This document shows positions 4,314-20,503 of a DNA stretch of 24,978 nucleotides, one piece after another. How positions within the stretch are numbered: position 1 is the stretch's first letter; each line of letters starts with the position of its first letter. The DNA comes from a virus. Position numbers and translations under genes: made by a program. Below the pieces are notes generated by a model that did no database searches, was not told the origin of the DNA, and saw only the letters and a program-made list of their open reading frames with translations. Where the stretch lies: the IMG/VR virus record IMGVR_UViG_3300032298_001075, positions 1-24,978 of that record. One strand, given 5' to 3'.

Positions 4314-6569
4314 ATGAGCAATATCTATGTAACTAAGCGGAGCGGAGAAAAAGAAAAATTTAATATAGATAAAATTCACAAGATTATAAACTGGGCCATA
4401 AGCGACATTACTGACGTTCATTTGTCTGACATTGAAATTAATGCAAGATTAAATCTCCAGGATAATATTTCTACAAAAGATATACATCAGGTCTTAATTG
4501 AGTCTTCTGCAAATTTAATTACATTAGAAACACCAAACTATCAATATGTGGCTTGTCGTTTGTTGAATTATCAATTAAGAAAAGACGTATGGGGCGGTAA
4601 ACATGCTCCTCGGTTACTTGATGTAATAAAAGACGGCGTCAAAAATAAAATATATGACCCAACAATTTTTGAAAAATACTCAGACGAAGAAATTAATAAG
4701 ATCGGTGAAATCGTCGATCATGATAGAGATTTTCTATTTACATATGCCGGCTTGAAACAGCTTTGTGACAAATATCTAATAAAAAATCGCGTTACAAATA
4801 TAATCTACGAAACGCCTCAATTTGCTTATATTTTAATAGCATTATATGGCTTTATAAATTATTCAAAAGATACACGCCTAGAGTATGTTAAGCGGTTTTA
4901 TAATGCTATTTCAAAGCATAAGATCAATCTACCAACACCGGTAATGGCGGGTGTAAGGACAAGATCGCGTAAATACGCTAGCTGCTGCTTGATAGGTGTT
5001 GACGATAACAAGGAAAGTATCACGGCATCTGGTACTGCTGTCTCTATTGCAACAGCTAGTCGATGTGGTATTGGTATTGATATTTCAAAAATAAGGGCTA
5101 TCGGATCACCTGTTTCAAATGGTGAAGTTGTACATACCGGTGTGATACCGTTCTTAAAAATTTATGAGGCATCTGTTAAAGCATGGCAACAGAATGGGTT
5201 ACGAGGCGGATCTGCAACAATCAATATTCAGTGGTGGCATTATGAAATTGAAGATATTGTTGTTTTAAAAAATAATGCGGGTACAGATGATAATAGAGTA
5301 CGTAAGCTTGATTATACTGTTGGTATGTCTAAGATTTTTTACGATAGAGTAATAAAAGACGAGCAAATAACTCTATTCAGTCCGCACGATGTACCAGAAT
5401 TATATGAGGCATGGGGCACACCGCAATTTGATAAATTATATAAAGAATATGAGCAAGATAGAAAAATTAAACGAAAGAAAACTATTTCTGCTCGTAAGTT
5501 GTTTTCATTAATTATAAAAGAGAGGGTAGAAACAGGTAGAATATATATTCTCAATGTTGATACCGCTAACGAACATAGCTCATGGTTAGATAGAGTCACT
5601 ATGAGTAATCTTTGCACAGAAGTTATACATCCAACACTACCTCTAAAAGACTTTCATGATCCGGATGCAGAGATAGGAATGTGTATTCTTTCTGCTATTA
5701 ACATGCTTGAAATAAGAGATTGGAAAGATTTAGAAAAGACTTGTAATTTAGCGGTTCGCTTTTTAGAAGAAATTATAGATATACAAGATTATTTTAACAA
5801 GGCTGCAGACAATTTTGCTAAGAAAAGACGTAGCTTAGGTATTGGTATTACTAACTTAGCAGCATTCCTGGCAAAGAATAATGCATCATATTCTTCTAAG
5901 GATGGATTATTGTTATTAGATGAATGGATGGAACATTTTCAGTATTACTTACTAAGTGCCAGTTGCGAACTAGCCCAAGAAAAAGGTAAATGCGAGAAGT
6001 ATGACAGTACTAAATATAGCAAAAATATTTTTCCGTTAGATACGTACAAGAAAAATGTAGATAATATTGTAAAGAGAAAATTATCATTAAATTGGAATGA
6101 GTTAAGGCAAAGAGTTAAAGAACACGGTTTACGTCACTCAACCCTTTCAAGCTGTATGCCTTGTGAATCGAGCTCTGTAATACAGAGTTCGACAAACGGT
6201 GTAGAGCCTGTAAGAAGCTTGGTAACATTCAAAACATCAAAAATGGGTAAACTACCTGTGTTAGTCCCTGGTATCGGTAAATATCACGACAATTACGAGC
6301 TAGCTTATGACATGAAAGACAACACTGGTTTAATAAATATAAATGCTGTTATTCAGAAATACATCGATATGGCAATTTCAACAAACATCTATTATAATTA
6401 TAACCATTATTCAAACCATGTATTGCCCGATAGTAAAGTTATGAAAGAGATTCTATATGCATATAGCATGGGATTAATTAGTCTCTACTATAATAACACG
6501 GACGACGGTGATAAGGATCAAGGATTGGATAAATCAAATGATTGCTCAGGAGGTGCATGTAAATTATGA
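4314..6569 (+). CDS. nrdA: Class Ia ribonucleotide reductase, large (alpha) subunit
   Basis: The enzyme reduces ribonucleoside diphosphates to deoxyribonucleoside diphosphates with its NrdB partner, supplying dNTPs for phage replication. Its 751 residues match the usual length (T4 NrdA is about 754). The N-terminal 90 residues form an ATP-cone allosteric domain (TKRSGEKEKFNIDKI). Active-site residues are visible: C224 in YASCCLIG, N432/C434/E436 in SNLCTEV and C457 in GMCILSAINM. The C-terminal redox tail DCSGGACKL supplies C744 and C749 for re-reduction by thioredoxin or glutaredoxin. All elements needed for activity appear intact. Its TGA overlaps the nrdB ATG in ATGA, so the two subunits are translationally coupled. 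No intron or homing endonuclease interrupts it, unlike nrd genes in some T4 relatives. Confidence 0.97.
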   Translation: MSNIYVTKRSGEKEKFNIDKIHKIINWAISDITDVHLSDIEINARLNLQDNISTKDIHQVLIESSANLITLETPNYQYVACRLLNYQLRKDVWGGKHAPRLLDVIKDGVKNKIYDPTIFEKYSDEEINKIGEIVDHDRDFLFTYAGLKQLCDKYLIKNRVTNIIYETPQFAYILIALYGFINYSKDTRLEYVKRFYNAISKHKINLPTPVMAGVRTRSRKYASCCLIGVDDNKESITASGTAVSIATASRCGIGIDISKIRAIGSPVSNGEVVHTGVIPFLKIYEASVKAWQQNGLRGGSATINIQWWHYEIEDIVVLKNNAGTDDNRVRKLDYTVGMSKIFYDRVIKDEQITLFSPHDVPELYEAWGTPQFDKLYKEYEQDRKIKRKKTISARKLFSLIIKERVETGRIYILNVDTANEHSSWLDRVTMSNLCTEVIHPTLPLKDFHDPDAEIGMCILSAINMLEIRDWKDLEKTCNLAVRFLEEIIDIQDYFNKAADNFAKKRRSLGIGITNLAAFLAKNNASYSSKDGLLLLDEWMEHFQYYLLSASCELAQEKGKCEKYDSTKYSKNIFPLDTYKKNVDNIVKRKLSLNWNELRQRVKEHGLRHSTLSSCMPCESSSVIQSSTNGVEPVRSLVTFKTSKMGKLPVLVPGIGKYHDNYELAYDMKDNTGLININAVIQKYIDMAISTNIYYNYNHYSNHVLPDSKVMKEILYAYSMGLISLYYNNTDDGDKDQGLDKSNDCSGGACKL

Positions 6570-7630
6570 AGTCTGTCTTAAACATTAAAAATATTGACCA
6601 TACAAAGCAACCGCTTTTCTTCGGCGAGGATTTAAACCTACAGCGTTATGATAAATTTAAATACCCTATATTTTTTGAACTCTTTAAAAGACAAGAAGAA
6701 TTTTTCTGGTGGCCCCATGAAATTTCACTACAGAAAGATAGAAATGACTATAAGGAGTTAAAAGGACCTGAGAGATTTGTTTTCGATACAAATCTAAAAT
6801 TTCAGACACTCGGAGACAGTATGCTGTCTCGCTCTATACATTCATTAAAAGACCATGTAACGAATCCCGAATTAGAGATATGTATGAACACCTGGCAGCG
6901 TTTTGAAGGTATTCATAGCTACAGTTATTCATATTTGCTCAATAACGTACACCACGATGCTACAGCTTTTTTTGATAGTATTATGGAGGATAAGGAGATT
7001 GTTGGTCGTGCTGAATTAATACGTGAGAGCTTTGATAAGATCCTAGGTGACGATACAAAAAAAGATATAAGACAAAAGATATTTGATTGTGTACTTGCTA
7101 TTAACTGTATGGAAGGGCTTGTATTTTATGTAAGCTTTGCATGTTCTTTCTACTTCGGTTATCGCGGTAAAATGGAAGGTAACGCTAAGATTATTAAATT
7201 TATTCAAAGAGACGAATCACAGCATTATGCTATTACACAGAATTTATTAAAAATAATGCGCGATGAAGACAAAGAAGGGTTCACTTCTATTGTTAGAAAA
7301 AGCGAAGATAAGATATATGCGTTTTACGAGCAAGCTGCAAAAAATGAAATTGAATGGGCGCAATACTTATTTAGTAAAGGTTCGTTGCTTGGACTTAATG
7401 CGGATGTTTTAGGTGGTTACGCTAAATGGCTTTGTGATACACGCTTAAGATCTTTAGGTTATAAGAAGCTTTTTAATCAAAAAGGTAATCCTATATCAGG
7501 GTGGTTAGATAGTTATCTAGACAGTAGTAAGGTACAGGTAGCACCCCAAGAAACAGAAATCTCTACCTATAAGATAGGTGCTCGCGATACAAGTATTGAT
7601 GATGCAACGTTTGAAGATATTAAACTATGA
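6566..7630 (+). CDS. nrdB: Class Ia ribonucleotide reductase, small (beta) subunit
   Basis: This 354-residue subunit carries the di-iron centre and the tyrosyl radical used by NrdA. Metal ligands align with the E. coli enzyme: D84 in QTLGDSM, E114 and H117 in RFEGIHSYSY, E183 in MEGLVFYVSFACSF, and E217 and H220 in RDESQH. The radical tyrosine is Y121, seven residues after E114, as in E. coli (E115/Y122). This makes it a typical tyrosyl-radical type. The C-terminus (DDATFEDIKL) has the acidic/aromatic character of tails that dock on the alpha subunit. It overlaps nrdA and the following 74-residue gene by 4 nt each (ATGA), forming a tight three-gene unit. Confidence 0.97.
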   Translation: MKSVLNIKNIDHTKQPLFFGEDLNLQRYDKFKYPIFFELFKRQEEFFWWPHEISLQKDRNDYKELKGPERFVFDTNLKFQTLGDSMLSRSIHSLKDHVTNPELEICMNTWQRFEGIHSYSYSYLLNNVHHDATAFFDSIMEDKEIVGRAELIRESFDKILGDDTKKDIRQKIFDCVLAINCMEGLVFYVSFACSFYFGYRGKMEGNAKIIKFIQRDESQHYAITQNLLKIMRDEDKEGFTSIVRKSEDKIYAFYEQAAKNEIEWAQYLFSKGSLLGLNADVLGGYAKWLCDTRLRSLGYKKLFNQKGNPISGWLDSYLDSSKVQVAPQETEISTYKIGARDTSIDDATFEDIKL

Positions 7631-8684: not shown

Positions 8685-9644
8685 GTGAAGCGTTATCTGC
8701 ACTACAGGGATGTATTTCTAATCCCTAAAATATCCGGTCTACCGACACGCAAGGTAGCATCAACATTTACCTCTCTCAATAATCATACTTTTCGAGTCCC
8801 TGTGGTACCTTCTAATATGAAGTGCTCTATAGATATAAAACAGGCTAAGCTTTTATCAGAAAATGATTATTTCTATATTATGCATAGGTTTGACATAGAC
8901 AATCTTGAATTTGTAAGACAGTGTAACGAAGAAAATTGGAAATCTATTTCTATAAGTATCGGTGTTCACGATAAAGACTATCAGGTGTTAGAAAATATCT
9001 TTTCAAATAACTTAAGGTTAGATTTTATTACAATTGACGTTGCCCACGGTCATCATTCCTTAGTCAAACAAATTTTAGAGTATATCTGTAGATTCAAAAC
9101 AAACGAGACATATGTAATTGCAGGTAATATAGCAACACCGCAAGCTGCAGAAGATTTGGTTCTTTGGGGCGCAGACGCTATTAAAGTTGGTATCGGTCAA
9201 GGATACGTTTGTACTACTAAAGATAAAACCGGCTTTACTATGCCAATGTTTACGTGTATTCAGGATGTAGCTGAAAGATGCAAGGTAGATATTATTGCAG
9301 ACGGCGGTATTCGTTGTAACGGGGACATTGCTAAAGCTATAGCTGCAGGCGCAAAAATGGTTATGTGCGGTGGTATGTTTGCCGGTCTTATAGATAGTCC
9401 CTCACCAGTTATTAAAGACCCGTCTAATTCAACTATTCTCTATAAAGAATATTTTGGGTCTGCAAGCGCAAAAAACAAAAATACCGAGACAAATATAGAG
9501 GGAAGATCAGAACTTATACCAATGCAACATAACACGTACTTGTGGAAGTTAAATGAAATCGAACAAGACTTACAAAGTGCTATTAGCTACGCGGGTGGTG
9601 AAGATTTAGAATCTCTTAGTTATATTGATATTGGTTGGAATTAA
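8685..9644 (+). CDS. guaC: GMP reductase (IMPDH/GMPR family, GuaC2-like)
   Basis: The enzyme reduces GMP to IMP and ammonia with NADPH, moving guanine nucleotides back to the branch point of purine synthesis. The 319-residue chain is one TIM barrel without CBS domains, as in GMP reductases. The Cys loop GIGQGYVCTTKDKTGF carries nucleophile C176. Other signature segments are VPSNMK, NDYFYIMHRFD, TIDVAHGH, VIAGNIATP, IIADGGIRCNGDIAKAI and EYFGSASA. The C-terminus (LQSAISYAGGEDL) closely follows the shorter GMP reductase type of Gram-positive bacteria (about 325 residues) rather than the E. coli type. IMP dehydrogenase activity cannot be fully excluded. It starts at GTG right behind a TATAAT box. 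Its 3' end overlaps the convergent hub gene by 4 nt. Such a gene is unusual in a phage. Confidence 0.88.
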   Translation: MKRYLHYRDVFLIPKISGLPTRKVASTFTSLNNHTFRVPVVPSNMKCSIDIKQAKLLSENDYFYIMHRFDIDNLEFVRQCNEENWKSISISIGVHDKDYQVLENIFSNNLRLDFITIDVAHGHHSLVKQILEYICRFKTNETYVIAGNIATPQAAEDLVLWGADAIKVGIGQGYVCTTKDKTGFTMPMFTCIQDVAERCKVDIIADGGIRCNGDIAKAIAAGAKMVMCGGMFAGLIDSPSPVIKDPSNSTILYKEYFGSASAKNKNTETNIEGRSELIPMQHNTYLWKLNEIEQDLQSAISYAGGEDLESLSYIDIGWN

Positions 9645-12667: not shown

Positions 12668-13498
12668 ATGCTAATGAAAGTATCTCACGAATCTCCTGTA
12701 TCTATCTTAGATATTTCAACAAAATATAATGACTTTGATTATTGTCTAGTTCATCTCTTGCATCAAGACGCAGGTTCACCTCGACAACTTCAATATTATA
12801 GTTACTATAAATTTGCAAGATTACTTCACAACAGGGAAGTATTACTAGATAATTCTATTTTTGAACTCGGTAAAGCTTTTGACCCAGACATTTATTATAA
12901 GTCTATAATAGATATTCAACCAAATATGTTTATTGTACCGGATGTTTTGGAAGATTCAGACGCTACGATAGATAGCTATATAAACTTTAGGAGTAAAACA
13001 GAAGATACGAAGAAACTTTTCTTCACAAAAGCTATAGGGGCTATTCAAGGTAAAAATTGGCAAGACTTAAGAGACTGCTATGAGTTTATGTCTAATGAAG
13101 CAGACATGATTGCTATAAGTTTTGATTTTAGTTATTATCAAACTACCGGTGAAGGACACGATAAACTTGAACGTTTTTGTTCTGGTAGACAGCGCTTTAT
13201 TTCACAACTAATTGATTGTGGTTTATGGAATTGGAAAAAACCGCACCACCTGTTAGGCTGTTCTCTTGCAAAAGAATTTCGTTATTACGTTGATAAGAAT
13301 ATCTATAATATTGTAAGTTGCGATACAAGTAACCCTGTTGTTGCTGCTATCCATGAATTAAAGTATGATGCAGATTATGGCTTACCAATGAAGCCTACTG
13401 CAAAACTTGCAGACCTTATTGATCATACTTTTACCCCGGAACAAATAAACATATTAAATTATAATGTTGATATGTTCAAAAAGATTATTCGCAGATGA
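12668..13498 (+). CDS. dpdA: DpdA-like DNA 7-deazaguanine transglycosylase
   Basis: This 276-residue protein resembles the tRNA-guanine transglycosylase (TGT) superfamily members of phages named DpdA, which exchange guanine in DNA for a 7-deazaguanine base. Segments that fit this family in order are LLDNSIFELG (D61), FIVPDVLED (D92), IGAIQGKNW, IAISFDF, HHLLGCSLAKEF and IVSCDTSNP (D219). By analogy with TGT, D61 and D219 are candidates for the general base and the covalent nucleophile. The Cys-rich zinc site of tRNA TGT is not seen, as expected for a divergent DNA enzyme. The start at 12668 fits the promoter. An ATG at 12674 is the alternative, with AGG 6 nt before it. Its TGA overlaps the next ATG (ATGA). 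The call relies on motif pattern plus QueF nearby. The DpdA subfamily is not assigned. Confidence 0.75.
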   Translation: MLMKVSHESPVSILDISTKYNDFDYCLVHLLHQDAGSPRQLQYYSYYKFARLLHNREVLLDNSIFELGKAFDPDIYYKSIIDIQPNMFIVPDVLEDSDATIDSYINFRSKTEDTKKLFFTKAIGAIQGKNWQDLRDCYEFMSNEADMIAISFDFSYYQTTGEGHDKLERFCSGRQRFISQLIDCGLWNWKKPHHLLGCSLAKEFRYYVDKNIYNIVSCDTSNPVVAAIHELKYDADYGLPMKPTAKLADLIDHTFTPEQINILNYNVDMFKKIIRR

Positions 13499-14067
13499 AT
13501 CGCCCTTGGATTGCTTTTTTTAGTCAAACAGGAACTGAAATAAATGATCTATCTAATGCATTAGGTATATATCCAGAATTAATAGTGACAAATAAATCTG
13601 ATTTAAAAAAAGTTAATAAAGATTTACTCAGTACAACAAAATTTAGAGAACATAAGCTTAATAGAACTTTTCTGGAGTTTCTGCCTACTAAACCTGTAAC
13701 GTCAGATTATTTAAAAATTTTAGAACGCTTTGAGAATCCAATTATAACTCTCCACGGGTATTTGAGAATTGTTCCAAAAGAGATTTGTGAAAAATATGAG
13801 ATGTATAATTTACACCCCGGTTTAATTAATAAGTATCCATCGCTAAAAGGATTCAACCCACAAGAAAGAGCCTTCGCTCAAAACCATAAGTTTGCAGGCT
13901 GCGTCTTACATAAAGTAACGCCGGGTGTTGATGAAGGAGAGATATTATTAAGTCAGGGCGAGTTTATAGAGGGGTTATCTTTAGACGAGGTTTATATGAA
14001 GTTGAGACAAGTCGCCCTTGATCTATGGATTAGTTTCTTTAAGGGCTATAAATTTATAAAGATATGA
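13495..14067 (+). CDS. Formyltransferase (PurN/Fmt-like), candidate DpdN
   Basis: The 190-residue protein has the formyl-folate transferase catalytic region: YNLHPGLINKYP (N105, H107), then GFNPQERAF, and VLHKVTPGVDEGEILL (D146). N, H and D match the catalytic triad of E. coli PurN (N106, H108, D144). PurN transfers formyl from 10-formyl-tetrahydrofolate to an amine. The N-terminal half is divergent, without the usual GNGSNL-type start of PurN, so a housekeeping purine role is doubtful. It overlaps both the dpdA-like gene and the Nmad1-like gene by ATGA. I recall that a formyltransferase called DpdN has been proposed to convert dPreQ1 in phage DNA to its 7-(formylamino)methyl form, and this gene fits that proposal. 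The substrate is inferred from context. Confidence 0.72.
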   Translation: MNRPWIAFFSQTGTEINDLSNALGIYPELIVTNKSDLKKVNKDLLSTTKFREHKLNRTFLEFLPTKPVTSDYLKILERFENPIITLHGYLRIVPKEICEKYEMYNLHPGLINKYPSLKGFNPQERAFAQNHKFAGCVLHKVTPGVDEGEILLSQGEFIEGLSLDEVYMKLRQVALDLWISFFKGYKFIKI

Positions 14068-14411
14068 CATCTGAAGAAATTACTAAAGTTGTTGAAGAGA
14101 CGTATCCGGAGACTTGTGGTGAATTTAAAAGAATACAATCAGAACATTACGAACTATTTTGTAAAAAACAGTTTGACTACGGACCGCACAATATAAGCTT
14201 AGGTTCCGATTTACATAGAAAAGAAGATATTGTAGCCTCTATTTCTGCTATTGTAGTACGATTGAATGATAAGATTCAGAGATTAATTAATCTTGTGTTA
14301 CGTAAGAAGACATTTGAAACAGCAAATGAGCCTGTTTTTGATGCGTTTGGAGATACAGCTGTTTATTGTACGATAGCGGAAATTGTAAAAAGAAAGAAAT
14401 GGTGTAAATGA
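14064..14411 (+). CDS. Nmad1-like (DUF1599) nucleotide-modification-associated protein
   Basis: The protein has 115 residues. The pattern YELFCKKQFDYGPHN, then RLNDKIQRLINLV and NEPVFDAFGDTAVYCTIAEI, resembles the nucleotide modification associated domain 1 (DUF1599) family. That family is described from phage gene clusters with modified bases and is alpha-helical with conserved Asp, Lys and Arg residues. Its biochemical role is not established to my knowledge. A MazG-like nucleotide-binding or hydrolysing activity has been considered because of its helical acidic layout. It is coupled by ATGA on both sides (to the formyltransferase and the 47-residue gene). The context supports a part in making or regulating the modified guanine. 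Confidence 0.65.
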   Translation: MTSEEITKVVEETYPETCGEFKRIQSEHYELFCKKQFDYGPHNISLGSDLHRKEDIVASISAIVVRLNDKIQRLINLVLRKKTFETANEPVFDAFGDTAVYCTIAEIVKRKKWCK

Positions 14412-14551
14412 AGCCTGATGAAGAAAAATATATATGGGTCGATGATGATAATCACCTTTTAAAAGGCTACTTTAAGGAACGCAAAGATTGCGGCAACTCT
14501 CCATCTTTGTTAGGCCGAATAATTTCCTTCTTTAAAGAGTTATTGAAGTAA
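14408..14551 (+). CDS. 47-residue protein at the end of the modification operon
   Basis: This short reading frame encodes 47 residues. The first half is acidic (MKPDEEKYIWVDDDNHLLKG) and the C-terminal third is hydrophobic and amphipathic (LLGRIISFFKELLK). The ATG overlaps the stop of the Nmad1-like gene as ATGA, the same spacing as the other junctions of this operon, which supports translation. The amphipathic tail might bind a membrane or a partner protein. I do not recognise it. The -35 box of the next promoter lies within its last codons. Confidence 0.5.
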   Translation: MKPDEEKYIWVDDDNHLLKGYFKERKDCGNSPSLLGRIISFFKELLK

Positions 14552-14570
14552 AGATAGTTTCTATTACAAT
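14543..14570 (+). promoter_or_regulatory. Sigma70-like promoter before the kinase-queF pair (TTGAAG-16-TACAAT)
   Basis: TTGAAG at 14543-14548 and TACAAT at 14565-14570 have a 16-nt spacer. The ATG at 14577 follows 6 nt after the -10 box, giving a predicted leaderless message. The layout matches the promoter at 12634-12661. Confidence 0.5.
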
Positions 14571-14576
14571 TAGTTC

Positions 14577-15179
14577 ATGATTATTACGTTTACCGGACCG
14601 CAATGTTCTGGTAAGACTACTCTCTTAAAAGAAATACAAAAAACTTACGGCGATACATTTTTGTATGTTGAAGAAGTCACGCGACTAATTAAGCGTGAAT
14701 TTAATGTATCTATAAATGAAGAAGGTGCTAACGATAAGGTACAAACGTTAATTTTAAATAAAGAGTTTGAGAATCTATTTATAGACTGGAGAACTAAAGG
14801 TTATAAGGGTATTATTCATGATAGGTGCTTGCTGGATGGGATGATCTTCACTGAATACTTTCAAGAGCAAGATATGAAAAAACCTTCATATCAAAGAGAT
14901 GGGTTTGGTCTTTCAAAGACATTATGCTATCAATATTGGATGAGTAATTATAAGAAATATGATGTAATATTTTATCCAGACCCGTATGATGTTAAGCTAG
15001 TTGACGACGGAGAGAGAAGTACGAATATGGAATTTCGAAACGCTATTATTGAAAAGTATGAACAGTATTGGCGTATGAATACGTGGCAACATGTGAAACA
15101 ACTAGTAAAATTACAAGGCACCGTTGAAGAACGTATGAATATAATTAAATTAATATTAGATGAACACACAACTCGATAA
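14577..15179 (+). CDS. P-loop kinase-like ATPase (AAA_28/NadR-type)
   Basis: The 200-residue protein opens with a Walker A motif, ITFTGPQCSGKTTLL (G7 to T14), directly after a short beta strand. Further on are VEEVTRL, the buried-strand segment IIHDRCLLDGMIF with D and R positions typical of nucleotide kinases, and YDVIFYPDPYDVKLVDDGER, a lid-like region. This layout fits the AAA_28/NadR-like group of small phosphotransferases, which act on nucleosides or nucleotides. The phosphate acceptor cannot be told from the sequence. It shares 20 nt with queF, which starts inside it, so the two are made together. Roles in dNMP phosphorylation or in a step of base hypermodification are both possible. 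Confidence 0.65.
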   Translation: MIITFTGPQCSGKTTLLKEIQKTYGDTFLYVEEVTRLIKREFNVSINEEGANDKVQTLILNKEFENLFIDWRTKGYKGIIHDRCLLDGMIFTEYFQEQDMKKPSYQRDGFGLSKTLCYQYWMSNYKKYDVIFYPDPYDVKLVDDGERSTNMEFRNAIIEKYEQYWRMNTWQHVKQLVKLQGTVEERMNIIKLILDEHTTR

Positions 15180-16074
15180 TAGTAATATCTCAAAGCACTT
15201 AGGCAGGATCACAGGTTATAAATGTACATACGATCCTTCCTTACTTGTACGAGAGCCTAGACAAAACAATAGAAAACATCTAGGTATTAAAGACGAGGAA
15301 TTACCTTTTTCGGGTTATGATATCTGGAACGCATATGAAGTATCTTGTATAACTGCAGAAGGAATGCCAATTGCTGCAATTGCTAAGATAGTATATCCTT
15401 GTACAAGTAAATATATTGTTGAATCTAAATCTATAAAACTTTATATGAATTCTTTTAATATGGAGAAGATCAGCGGTAACATTGTAAGTGTCTTGAACCA
15501 ATTACAAAATACCATTAGTAAAGACCTCTCGAGTTTATTAGAAACAGACGTGCGTGTTTATGTGCGTTCTACTACTGCTGTTGATGATAGTTTGCACTAT
15601 CCACCAGTACTACCCAATAGTCTTTACCCCACTCTAGAGCAAGGTATAGATGTAACGACGATACAAGCATCAATATATAATGAGACACCAGATTTATTAA
15701 ACGCAATTGAAATACCTGAACCTAAGACTCAGAGATTTCATTCTGCTTTATTAAAGAGTAATTGCAGGGTTACATCACAACCTGATTGGGGCGATGTTTA
15801 TATTCATTACAAAGGTAAATATGAAATTAATACCACTTCTTTACTTCATTATATTGTTTCGTTCCGTGATGAGTGTCACTTCCATGAAGAGATTTGTGAA
15901 ACAATTTATAAGAGATTTTATGATAAATTTAGTCCAGAGGAACTTGTTGTTACCTGTCTCTATGTACGCCGCGGGGGTATAGATATTAACCCAACACGTG
16001 CCAACAGATACGATCTAATTGATAAAGCCTTAAAAGACGAATTTAAGTATTTTACGAAAACTGTACGACAGTAA
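15160..16074 (+). CDS. queF: NADPH-dependent preQ0 reductase QueF (long, YqcD-type)
   Basis: QueF reduces the nitrile of 7-cyano-7-deazaguanine (preQ0) to the aminomethyl of preQ1 using two NADPH. The 304-residue chain is the two-domain (tunnelling-fold) form, as in E. coli (282). The N-terminal half has the QueF motif ESKSIKLYMNSFN (about 88-100). The C-terminal half has catalytic C202 in ALLKSNCRV, D209 in SQPDWG, H242 and E243 in CHFHEEIC, and the RRGGIDINP segment (271-279). All are intact. An insert near residues 140-190 is longer and more variable than in E. coli. In bacteria the product feeds queuosine in tRNA. Here the DpdA-like and formyltransferase genes suggest DNA modification. 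It overlaps the upstream kinase gene by 20 nt and ends directly against the convergent gene at 16075. Confidence 0.95.
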   Translation: MNTQLDNSNISKHLGRITGYKCTYDPSLLVREPRQNNRKHLGIKDEELPFSGYDIWNAYEVSCITAEGMPIAAIAKIVYPCTSKYIVESKSIKLYMNSFNMEKISGNIVSVLNQLQNTISKDLSSLLETDVRVYVRSTTAVDDSLHYPPVLPNSLYPTLEQGIDVTTIQASIYNETPDLLNAIEIPEPKTQRFHSALLKSNCRVTSQPDWGDVYIHYKGKYEINTTSLLHYIVSFRDECHFHEEICETIYKRFYDKFSPEELVVTCLYVRRGGIDINPTRANRYDLIDKALKDEFKYFTKTVRQ

Positions 16075-19352: not shown

Positions 19353-20024
19353 TTATGGATTTCCAAGAGTTTTAAAGAAAGACATAATTTGTTCTTTCAA
19401 AAAGAAAGCGACATCTTTCCTAGGTAAGTTAGAAACCGATTCTTCAAACTTATTATACGCTTCTTCAAGAGAACCATCTGCATTTAAAACATATTGTTTA
19501 CTCTCGAGAATACCATTTACGAAAGCCTTAGGACACGACGGATCAGCAACACAATCTACAGCAATCAATCTCATATCTTGAACAAGATTAATACCATTTT
19601 TTTCTTCAACAAGTTTACCAAGAGCTCTACTTGACATACCGACTCTTGCGCCATCGTTAATTAACGAGCGAACTAGTAAGCCCATAGGGGTAGAAAGAAC
19701 TTGAGATTTACCATAAACAAAATTATCCTGCATTCTTAATTCCGTTACCATATGGCAGGCGCGTTCTAAATTTACTTCAGCAGATGTGGGATGGTTTAAC
19801 TCACCCATAGCTCTCTTTGGTTCCACCATTTCTTTTACATAACGACCAACTTCTCTCGACATGTCATCTTTGTTATATTTTCTTAAATTTTTATTAACCG
19901 TCTCACACATCATATACGGTCCAGAAATAAAGAGCTTAGAAGGCTCCTTGGGATTTTTCTCCTCAACAATATATTCAAATTGTTCGTCCGGAGCAGGTGT
20001 TTCGACAAGTAGTCTAAATGCCAT
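19353..20024 (-). CDS. 21: Prohead maturation protease (gp21-like, S78-type serine protease)
   Basis: The 223-residue protease cleaves scaffold and capsid proteins during head maturation. The catalytic His is H78 in MGELNHPTSAEVNLER, and the catalytic Ser is in GMSSRALG (S131/S132). The AVDCVADPSCPKAF segment near residue 160 corresponds to the conserved VDIVADPS region of the family. Length matches T4 gp21 (212). The gene is in the expected place before the scaffold and capsid genes. It starts from a late-type box 5 nt upstream, with no Shine-Dalgarno sequence. Confidence 0.93.
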   Translation of the reverse strand: MAFRLLVETPAPDEQFEYIVEEKNPKEPSKLFISGPYMMCETVNKNLRKYNKDDMSREVGRYVKEMVEPKRAMGELNHPTSAEVNLERACHMVTELRMQDNFVYGKSQVLSTPMGLLVRSLINDGARVGMSSRALGKLVEEKNGINLVQDMRLIAVDCVADPSCPKAFVNGILESKQYVLNADGSLEEAYNKFEESVSNLPRKDVAFFLKEQIMSFFKTLGNP

Positions 20025-20029
20025 AGAAT

Positions 20030-20036
20030 TATTTAT
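20030..20036 (-). promoter_or_regulatory. Late-type promoter box, no leader (gp21-like gene)
   Basis: AATAAATA on the minus strand ends 5 nt before the ATG at 20024. The box fills most of the 20-nt gap to the upstream gene and is flanked by AGAAT/ATTCT. Confidence 0.6.
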
Positions 20037-20044
20037 TCTTTAGG

Positions 20045-20503
20045 TTATTTAATTCCCAACTCTTTCTCTGTAAGGATTAAAAATTTATAACCTTTCTTAT
20101 CACACCATTTCTTTGCAGCATCCCATTTAGCCATATTTTGTGCGTATCTCGTTGCTTCGTATATTTTTGTCGACATTTTCTTACGATTAGAGTTTTCAGG
20201 CTTTAATGTTTGTTTGCTTGGTTTAATTTCAATAAGGTATCTCTTTATCTCATCACGTTCTTTAATAGCTATTATACCATCTGTATAGTATCTATGTACT
20301 CTCTGATCTATTGGATTTAGATACGGTATTATAACTGATTCGCTTGCCCATTCTAATACATTATCATTATCATCACACCAGCGAAAGAACTTCAATTCCC
20401 AACCCGATCTGTATACAGGCATGCCTTTACCAACATATTTTTGAGGGTTTTTCGGCTTAAAAATACCTTGACGGAATTTATCGTTTTTTTGTATAGGACG
20501 CAT
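20045..20503 (-). CDS. 4: Head completion protein, gp4-like (TnsA-type nuclease fold)
   Basis: The protein has 152 residues, close to T4 gp4 (about 150). The N-terminal segment KPKNPQKYVGKGMPVYRSGWELKFFRWCD is split across the typical gp4 signature: KPKNPxKYVG, then YRSGWELKF. The protein has a PD-(D/E)XK-like core: E36, D75 in YYTDG, and E92/K94 in LIEIKPSKQT. In T4, gp4 is needed to complete heads after packaging, and the fold is related to TnsA endonucleases. Activity is not established here, but the putative catalytic residues are intact. It lies 1 nt after the neck-protein stop codon, in the same transcription unit as the neck and protease genes. Confidence 0.85.
   Translation of the reverse strand: MRPIQKNDKFRQGIFKPKNPQKYVGKGMPVYRSGWELKFFRWCDDNDNVLEWASESVIIPYLNPIDQRVHRYYTDGIIAIKERDEIKRYLIEIKPSKQTLKPENSNRKKMSTKIYEATRYAQNMAKWDAAKKWCDKKGYKFLILTEKELGIK

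Follow-up and report, generated by a model that had tools for sequence, protein, structure and literature searches.

The DNA of Campylobacter phages is highly modified by 2'-deoxy-7-amido-7-deazaguanosine (dADG), although Hutinet et al. (2019) listed these phages without a DpdA, and a modified deoxyguanosine triphosphate (dGTP) route and undetected deoxyribosyltransferases have both been raised as possibilities for full replacement of guanine (PMC6884629). Here we describe a six-gene cassette in a 24,978-base virus record (IMG/VR record IMGVR_UViG_3300032298_001075, positions 1 to 24,978, hereafter the window) from an uncultured T4-like myovirus. We consider it likely that this cassette makes a 7-deazaguanine that is installed in the phage DNA instead of guanine, with 7-aminomethyl-7-deazaguanine (preQ1) or formyl-preQ1 as the predicted end product. 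In 2023 Cui and colleagues reportedly gave the DpdA type of phage CP220 the name DpdA3 and tied DpdA3 to complete guanine replacement. The system in the window belongs to this known kind, and its neighbours in nucleotide metabolism suggest a variant mechanism.

Flavobacterium phage vB_FspM_immuto_2-6A (NC_055915; hereafter immuto) shares with the window the order dpdA, formyltransferase, P-loop kinase, QueF, and the products are 40% (DpdA, annotated as such in immuto; tblastn), 46% (formyltransferase) and 46% (QueF) identical. It differs in that folE adjoins dpdA, queD, queE and queC lie within ∼16 kb, a PRA-PH hydrolase stands in place of Nmad1, and no GMP reductase occurs in the stretch examined. 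Campylobacter firehammerviruses such as CP220 also encode a homologue (41% identical by tblastn), followed in CP220 by an AAA_28 kinase (32% identical); unlike the window, CP220 has an HD-hydrolase/P-loop protein 5' of dpdA, no formyltransferase that we could find and no QueF in the stretch examined, and its reported product is dADG replacing dG. The DpdA1 and DpdA2 systems of phages 9g, CAjan, VpKK5 and others resemble the window in having a transglycosylase of the tRNA-guanine transglycosylase (TGT) family and a pathway to 7-cyano-7-deazaguanine (preQ0), but none of these phages was reached by tblastn with the window DpdA at E 0.01, and they have no kinase neighbour. At the nucleotide level, the PurZ0 Z-genome phages (DmtZ, DUF5664) combine base exchange with a deoxynucleoside triphosphate (dNTP) diphosphohydrolase and pool control (PMC12884076), and some DpdA3 loci carry the PF18909 family. 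DmtZ, in contrast, has the fold of a nucleoside deoxyribosyltransferase rather than a TGT barrel and handles another base, and the hydrolase slot of the window is taken by Nmad1.

The transglycosylase and its linked genes

The first gene of the cassette (12668-13498, plus strand) encodes a 276-amino-acid protein that matches nothing in Pfam or NCBIfam and, among the PHROGs, only one without a name. When its AlphaFold2 model, built from 64 sequences (predicted local distance difference test score, pLDDT, 93.9), was compared with the PDB by Foldseek, the best 50 matches were all TGTs (E 1e-8, probability 1.00, query-normalized template modeling score 0.59-0.67), which is the structural match expected from the DpdA-like label in an earlier note on this DNA. 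Searching PDB sequences with the protein or its profile returned nothing, and comparison of the profile with single E. coli TGT or 9g DpdA sequences was not significant. Three aspartates, D61 (LDNSIFEL), D92 and D219 (DTSNP), are invariant in the 64 aligned sequences. The D61 and D219 motifs correspond in position to LDSGAF and CDSSSW of the phage 9g DpdA, making these two residues candidate catalytic aspartates, assigned by motif rather than by superposition. By its sequence relationship to the CP220-type DpdA, which we take to be DpdA3, the window enzyme is assigned to this subfamily and not to DpdA1 or DpdA2. Two related loci (L061 and L133) each have two neighbouring open reading frames labelled dpdA, perhaps a split or frameshifted gene.

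The second gene (13495-14067, plus strand) encodes a PurN-like formyltransferase of 190 amino acids, an identity that held in Pfam (PF00551, 50.2 bits against a cut-off of 26.1) and in a profile search of the PDB, where it matches glycinamide ribonucleotide transformylase chains (E 2.8e-16). The catalytic Asn, His and Asp are kept, N105-x-H107 and D146 being invariant in 8 aligned sequences, and the N.HP motif is present in 96 of 96 homologues and the GC..H/D.G pattern in 78 of them. The last gene (15160-16074, plus strand) encodes a bimodular QueF of 304 amino acids. It is intact, as had been claimed, with both Pfam domains (QueF_N, 121.4 bits; QueF, 80.8 bits) and complete SNCRVTSQPDWGD and FHEE motifs (catalytic Cys/Asp and His/Glu), and TIGR03138 gives 261.3 bits, just below its cut-off of 293.45.

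Between these lie three less-known genes. The kinase-like protein (14577-15179, plus strand, 200 amino acids) is indeed of the P-loop class (AAA_28, 54.9 bits against a cut-off of 27) and resembles NadR and thymidylate kinase. Walker A is present in 103 of 103 homologues, a profile search of the PDB matched thymidylate and deoxynucleoside kinases among others, and we predict that it is a (deoxy)nucleoside monophosphate ((d)NMP) kinase. The label Nmad1 (DUF1599) for the 115-amino-acid protein at 14064-14411 (plus strand) stands through its relatives, 17 of 26 aligned members matching PF07659 (best match 6.6e-5), whereas the window protein itself has no match. Its AlphaFold2 model is all-alpha (pLDDT 86). 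Assignment by fold to the all-alpha NTP pyrophosphatases was rejected, as no PDB fold match was obtained, and homology with PF18909 is likewise unsupported (hhalign probability 0.4%, though the KYG/DYG-N motifs align). In Microcystis phage Mel-JY01 an Nmad1 gene adjoins an S-adenosylmethionine synthase gene, ∼3.5 kb from a GuaB/GMP reductase gene and with no DpdA seen nearby, another possible hint of a link between Nmad1 and guanine nucleotide pools.

Linkage was counted in 92 distinct related loci with enough flanking sequence. Near dpdA, a labelled kinase is found in 89 loci, QueF in 86, the formyltransferase in 83 and Nmad1 in 60. Of the three loci that lack a labelled kinase, two proved to have a P-loop kinase (L013 and, with the gene further off, L090), giving 91 of 92. 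The third of the less-known genes (14408-14551, plus strand), for a 47-amino-acid protein, occurs in 6 loci, all close relatives. The same gene order repeats in scores of contigs, which argues that the cassette is more than a chance arrangement, and the tie between less-known genes and modification genes proposed in the earlier note is thereby confirmed. Several genes interrupt the cassette in L090 (5800-10318), including one of the ornithine cyclodeaminase family between the formyltransferase and Nmad1. In the window, the six reading frames lie exactly where they had been placed, and 4-nt ATGA overlaps join the first four, as described. The proposed division into two transcription units found no support: 25 nt separate the 47-amino-acid gene from the kinase gene, no terminator-like site was found on the plus strand, and promoter-like sites are no commoner than in shuffled sequence. 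One operon is the simpler reading.

The lack of preQ0 genes in the window is uninformative because the window is a fragment. Of 16 related contigs with a length of 105 kb or more, 15 have folE, queD and queC elsewhere on the contig, and on one 230-kb contig a QueE-like protein, with only a weak match to a 4Fe-4S profile, adjoins queD. The relatives thus make preQ0 themselves. Of the two sources previously suggested, the phage's own genome is borne out for these relatives, and completion by the host is not needed there. In two loci a class II glutamine amidotransferase gene lies directly 3' of queC (L197 14238-15671, contig 154238-155671, recognized by Pfam; L209 8182-9572, recognized by its MCAIFG start only), perhaps as an ammonia source for QueC or in an arrangement like that of Gat-QueC. 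In L198 a second NadR-like P-loop kinase gene (19664-20359, contig 179664-180359) lies near folE, queD and queE of the same genome.

We favor guanine replacement because of the TGT fold, the conserved candidate aspartates, the intact formyltransferase and QueF motifs, the linkage across 92 loci and the preQ0 genes of relatives, and also because relatives are annotated or reported as 7-deazaguanine phages and immuto has the same gene order. From the fold, motifs and gene linkage observed here we infer the substrate, order of steps and product as follows. FolE, QueD, QueE and QueC, encoded elsewhere in the phage genome, would convert GTP to preQ0, which QueF would reduce to preQ1. With formyl-tetrahydrofolate as donor, the formyltransferase would formylate the aminomethyl group, either before the base is inserted or afterwards. 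The DpdA3 enzyme would replace guanine by the 7-deazaguanine, probably at the majority of G positions or at every one.

The level of base exchange

As to where guanine is exchanged, we prefer the nucleotide over finished DNA, at a little less than an even chance, because kinases, dGTP, MazG, PRA-PH and HD hydrolases and GMP reductase stand beside DpdA3, and because DmtZ provides a precedent. In Z-genome phages DUF5664 turns dATP and dGTP into deoxynucleoside monophosphates (dNMPs), and the base of dAMP is exchanged by DmtZ (PMC12884076). By such a route dGTP would be cut to deoxyguanosine monophosphate (dGMP), DpdA3 would swap its base, the P-loop kinase would phosphorylate the modified monophosphate, and host nucleoside diphosphate kinase would complete the triphosphate for incorporation by the phage polymerase, while guanine nucleotides would be drained by GMP reductase. 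In full, and with slightly less assurance, we tentatively propose that DpdA3 is a dGMP:7-deazaguanine base-exchange enzyme rather than a DNA-modifying one. Its partners would be a (d)NMP kinase dedicated to the task, GMP reductase and a hydrolase that cleaves dGTP (Nmad1, PF18909, MazG, PRA-PH or HD), and their joint product would be a 7-deaza-dGTP that takes the place of dGTP in replication.

P-loop kinases stand beside DpdA3 in 11 of 14 chosen loci by a Walker A pattern (12 with the AAA_18 protein of Cellulophaga phage phiST), whereas ten DpdA1/2 loci have no Walker-A protein of <400 amino acids within 2.5 kb; the contrast of 11/14 with 0/10 (Fisher p 1.5e-4) is between hand-picked loci of lineages that are not independent. 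The kinase family differs between distant DpdA3 lineages (AAA_28, AAA_18, thymidylate-kinase-like) and still lies beside dpdA. Since a kinase is common to the cassettes with QueF and formyltransferase and to CP220, where neither adjoins, it probably acts on a shared feature such as the nucleotide phosphate and not on the side chain. Nucleotide enzymes dominate DpdA3 neighbourhoods, with PRA-PH in immuto, an HD protein in CP220, MazG in phiST and on a Clostridiales metagenome-assembled contig, and a relative of the PF18909 dATP/dGTP diphosphohydrolase inside the cassette in seven loci without Nmad1. Nmad1 occupies the slot held in some relatives by the dGTP diphosphohydrolase, and relatives of PF18909, MazG or PRA-PH are absent from the vicinity in all 60 loci with Nmad1, a pattern to which clade structure contributes. 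In 24 of the 92 loci the cassette includes a GMP reductase gene. In the window it is predicted at 8685-9644 (plus strand), where the product (GuaC) scores 327.1 bits with NF003966 (cut-off 344), above every IMP dehydrogenase model, pointing to GMP reductase and not IMP dehydrogenase; it belongs to the cassette set.

The alternative is that DpdA3 works after replication, exchanging guanine in completed DNA as DpdA1/2 do, with the kinase, Nmad1 and GMP reductase only managing dNTP supply and recycling released guanine. We hold it to be only slightly less probable than exchange on the nucleotide. TGT and DpdA1/2 act on polynucleotides, and DpdA3 shares their superfamily. In 2019 Crippen and colleagues are said to have looked in vain for dADG nucleotides in cells under infection, and in 2023 Cui and colleagues reportedly concluded that insertion follows replication for all DpdA action. 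These points weigh against exchange on dGMP, as do several features of the loci themselves: the window cassette has no recognized dGTP diphosphohydrolase, PF18909 occurring only in other DpdA3 loci; its Nmad1 is an unproven, putative hydrolase without PF18909 homology or a PDB fold match; and 20 of the 92 loci have neither hydrolase nor Nmad1 by the search made. No MazG or HD genes were found elsewhere in the T4-like contigs. Because no dGTP diphosphohydrolase is recognized in the window cassette, we suggest that it may work like nucleotide-level replacement, not that it is a member of that class. In favor of action on DNA, DpdA has been described as DNA-modifying (PMC6884629) and DpdA-catalysed replacement is classed as a nucleic-acid-level modification (PMC12783734), and GMP reductase could recycle the released guanine. 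Against it, the named non-Que neighbours in the ten DpdA1/2 loci are mostly polymerase, clamp or ParB-like genes, with no kinase, whereas DpdA3 loci have kinases and dGTP/MazG-type hydrolases, and a dGTP diphosphohydrolase would oppose making G-containing DNA first. Isoelectric point and zinc motif do not separate DNA-binding from nucleotide-acting enzymes, both DpdA groups being mostly acidic and without the motif.

The predicted modified base

The likeliest end product is formyl-preQ1 because the cassette includes a formyltransferase, a candidate preQ1 formyltransferase with a role like that of DpdN, which Cui and colleagues reportedly described in 2023 as a formyltransferase for dPreQ1 (the deoxynucleoside of preQ1); its folate half, but not its substrate half, appears to be conserved. 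It is unlikely that this enzyme instead serves purine synthesis or another target, leaving dPreQ1 or another derivative as the final base. The protein is of the PurN family, and 9 of the 92 loci keep dpdA without it, but it scores 48.6 bits with the PurN equivalog model, far under the cut-off of 150.1, and its gene has a 4-nt overlap with dpdA and is conserved alongside dpdA and queF in two groups of phages. Loci that lack it are naturally taken to belong to phages with dPreQ1 or dADG, and most also keep the kinase and queF, as expected if formylation were an optional last step. Phage phiSM was rejected as a source of DpdN, a search for a formyltransferase domain having found none there or in phiST.

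That the cassette boosts queuosine in host tRNA instead of modifying DNA is very improbable: QueF and the preQ0 pathway do feed tRNA queuosine in bacteria, and such a role has been raised for phages without a recognizable DpdA (PMC6884629), but the transglycosylase is nearer phage DpdA than TGT and shows translational coupling to the set, no gene of the QueA/QueG type was recognized in the window, and Campylobacter phages with the same enzyme type are reported to have highly modified DNA (PMC6884629).

Genomic setting and significance

Upstream of the cassette and on the same strand, a class I ribonucleotide reductase (nrdA-nrdB, 4314-7630, plus strand; PF02867 425 bits, PF00268 180 bits) would contribute to dNTP supply and may in this way be linked to the cassette. 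The portal, head protease, major head protein and tail sheath stabilizer recognized in the window mark a T4-like myovirus. Its major head protein is only ∼33% identical to those of named phages, so that within the searched collection the lineage has no cultured member. A Gp38-like tail fibre adhesin (13-879) and an S74-chaperone tail fibre (1647-2966) are likely host-range genes. Rfam and tRNA searches gave no matches in the window.

Uncultured phages carry the system widely, with a relative encoded in 581 IMG/VR stretches. Phages with DpdA1/2 modify just part of their guanine, and the system bears on how replacement becomes complete in some others. The gene neighbours of DpdA3 give a testable answer, in which a transglycosylase would stand in place of the hydroxymethylases of T4 or the PurZ of Z-genome phages. 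The analysis also assigns candidate roles to genes labelled Nmad1 and 'thymidylate kinase'; if DpdA3 does act on dGMP, Nmad1 proteins would be dNTP diphosphohydrolases.

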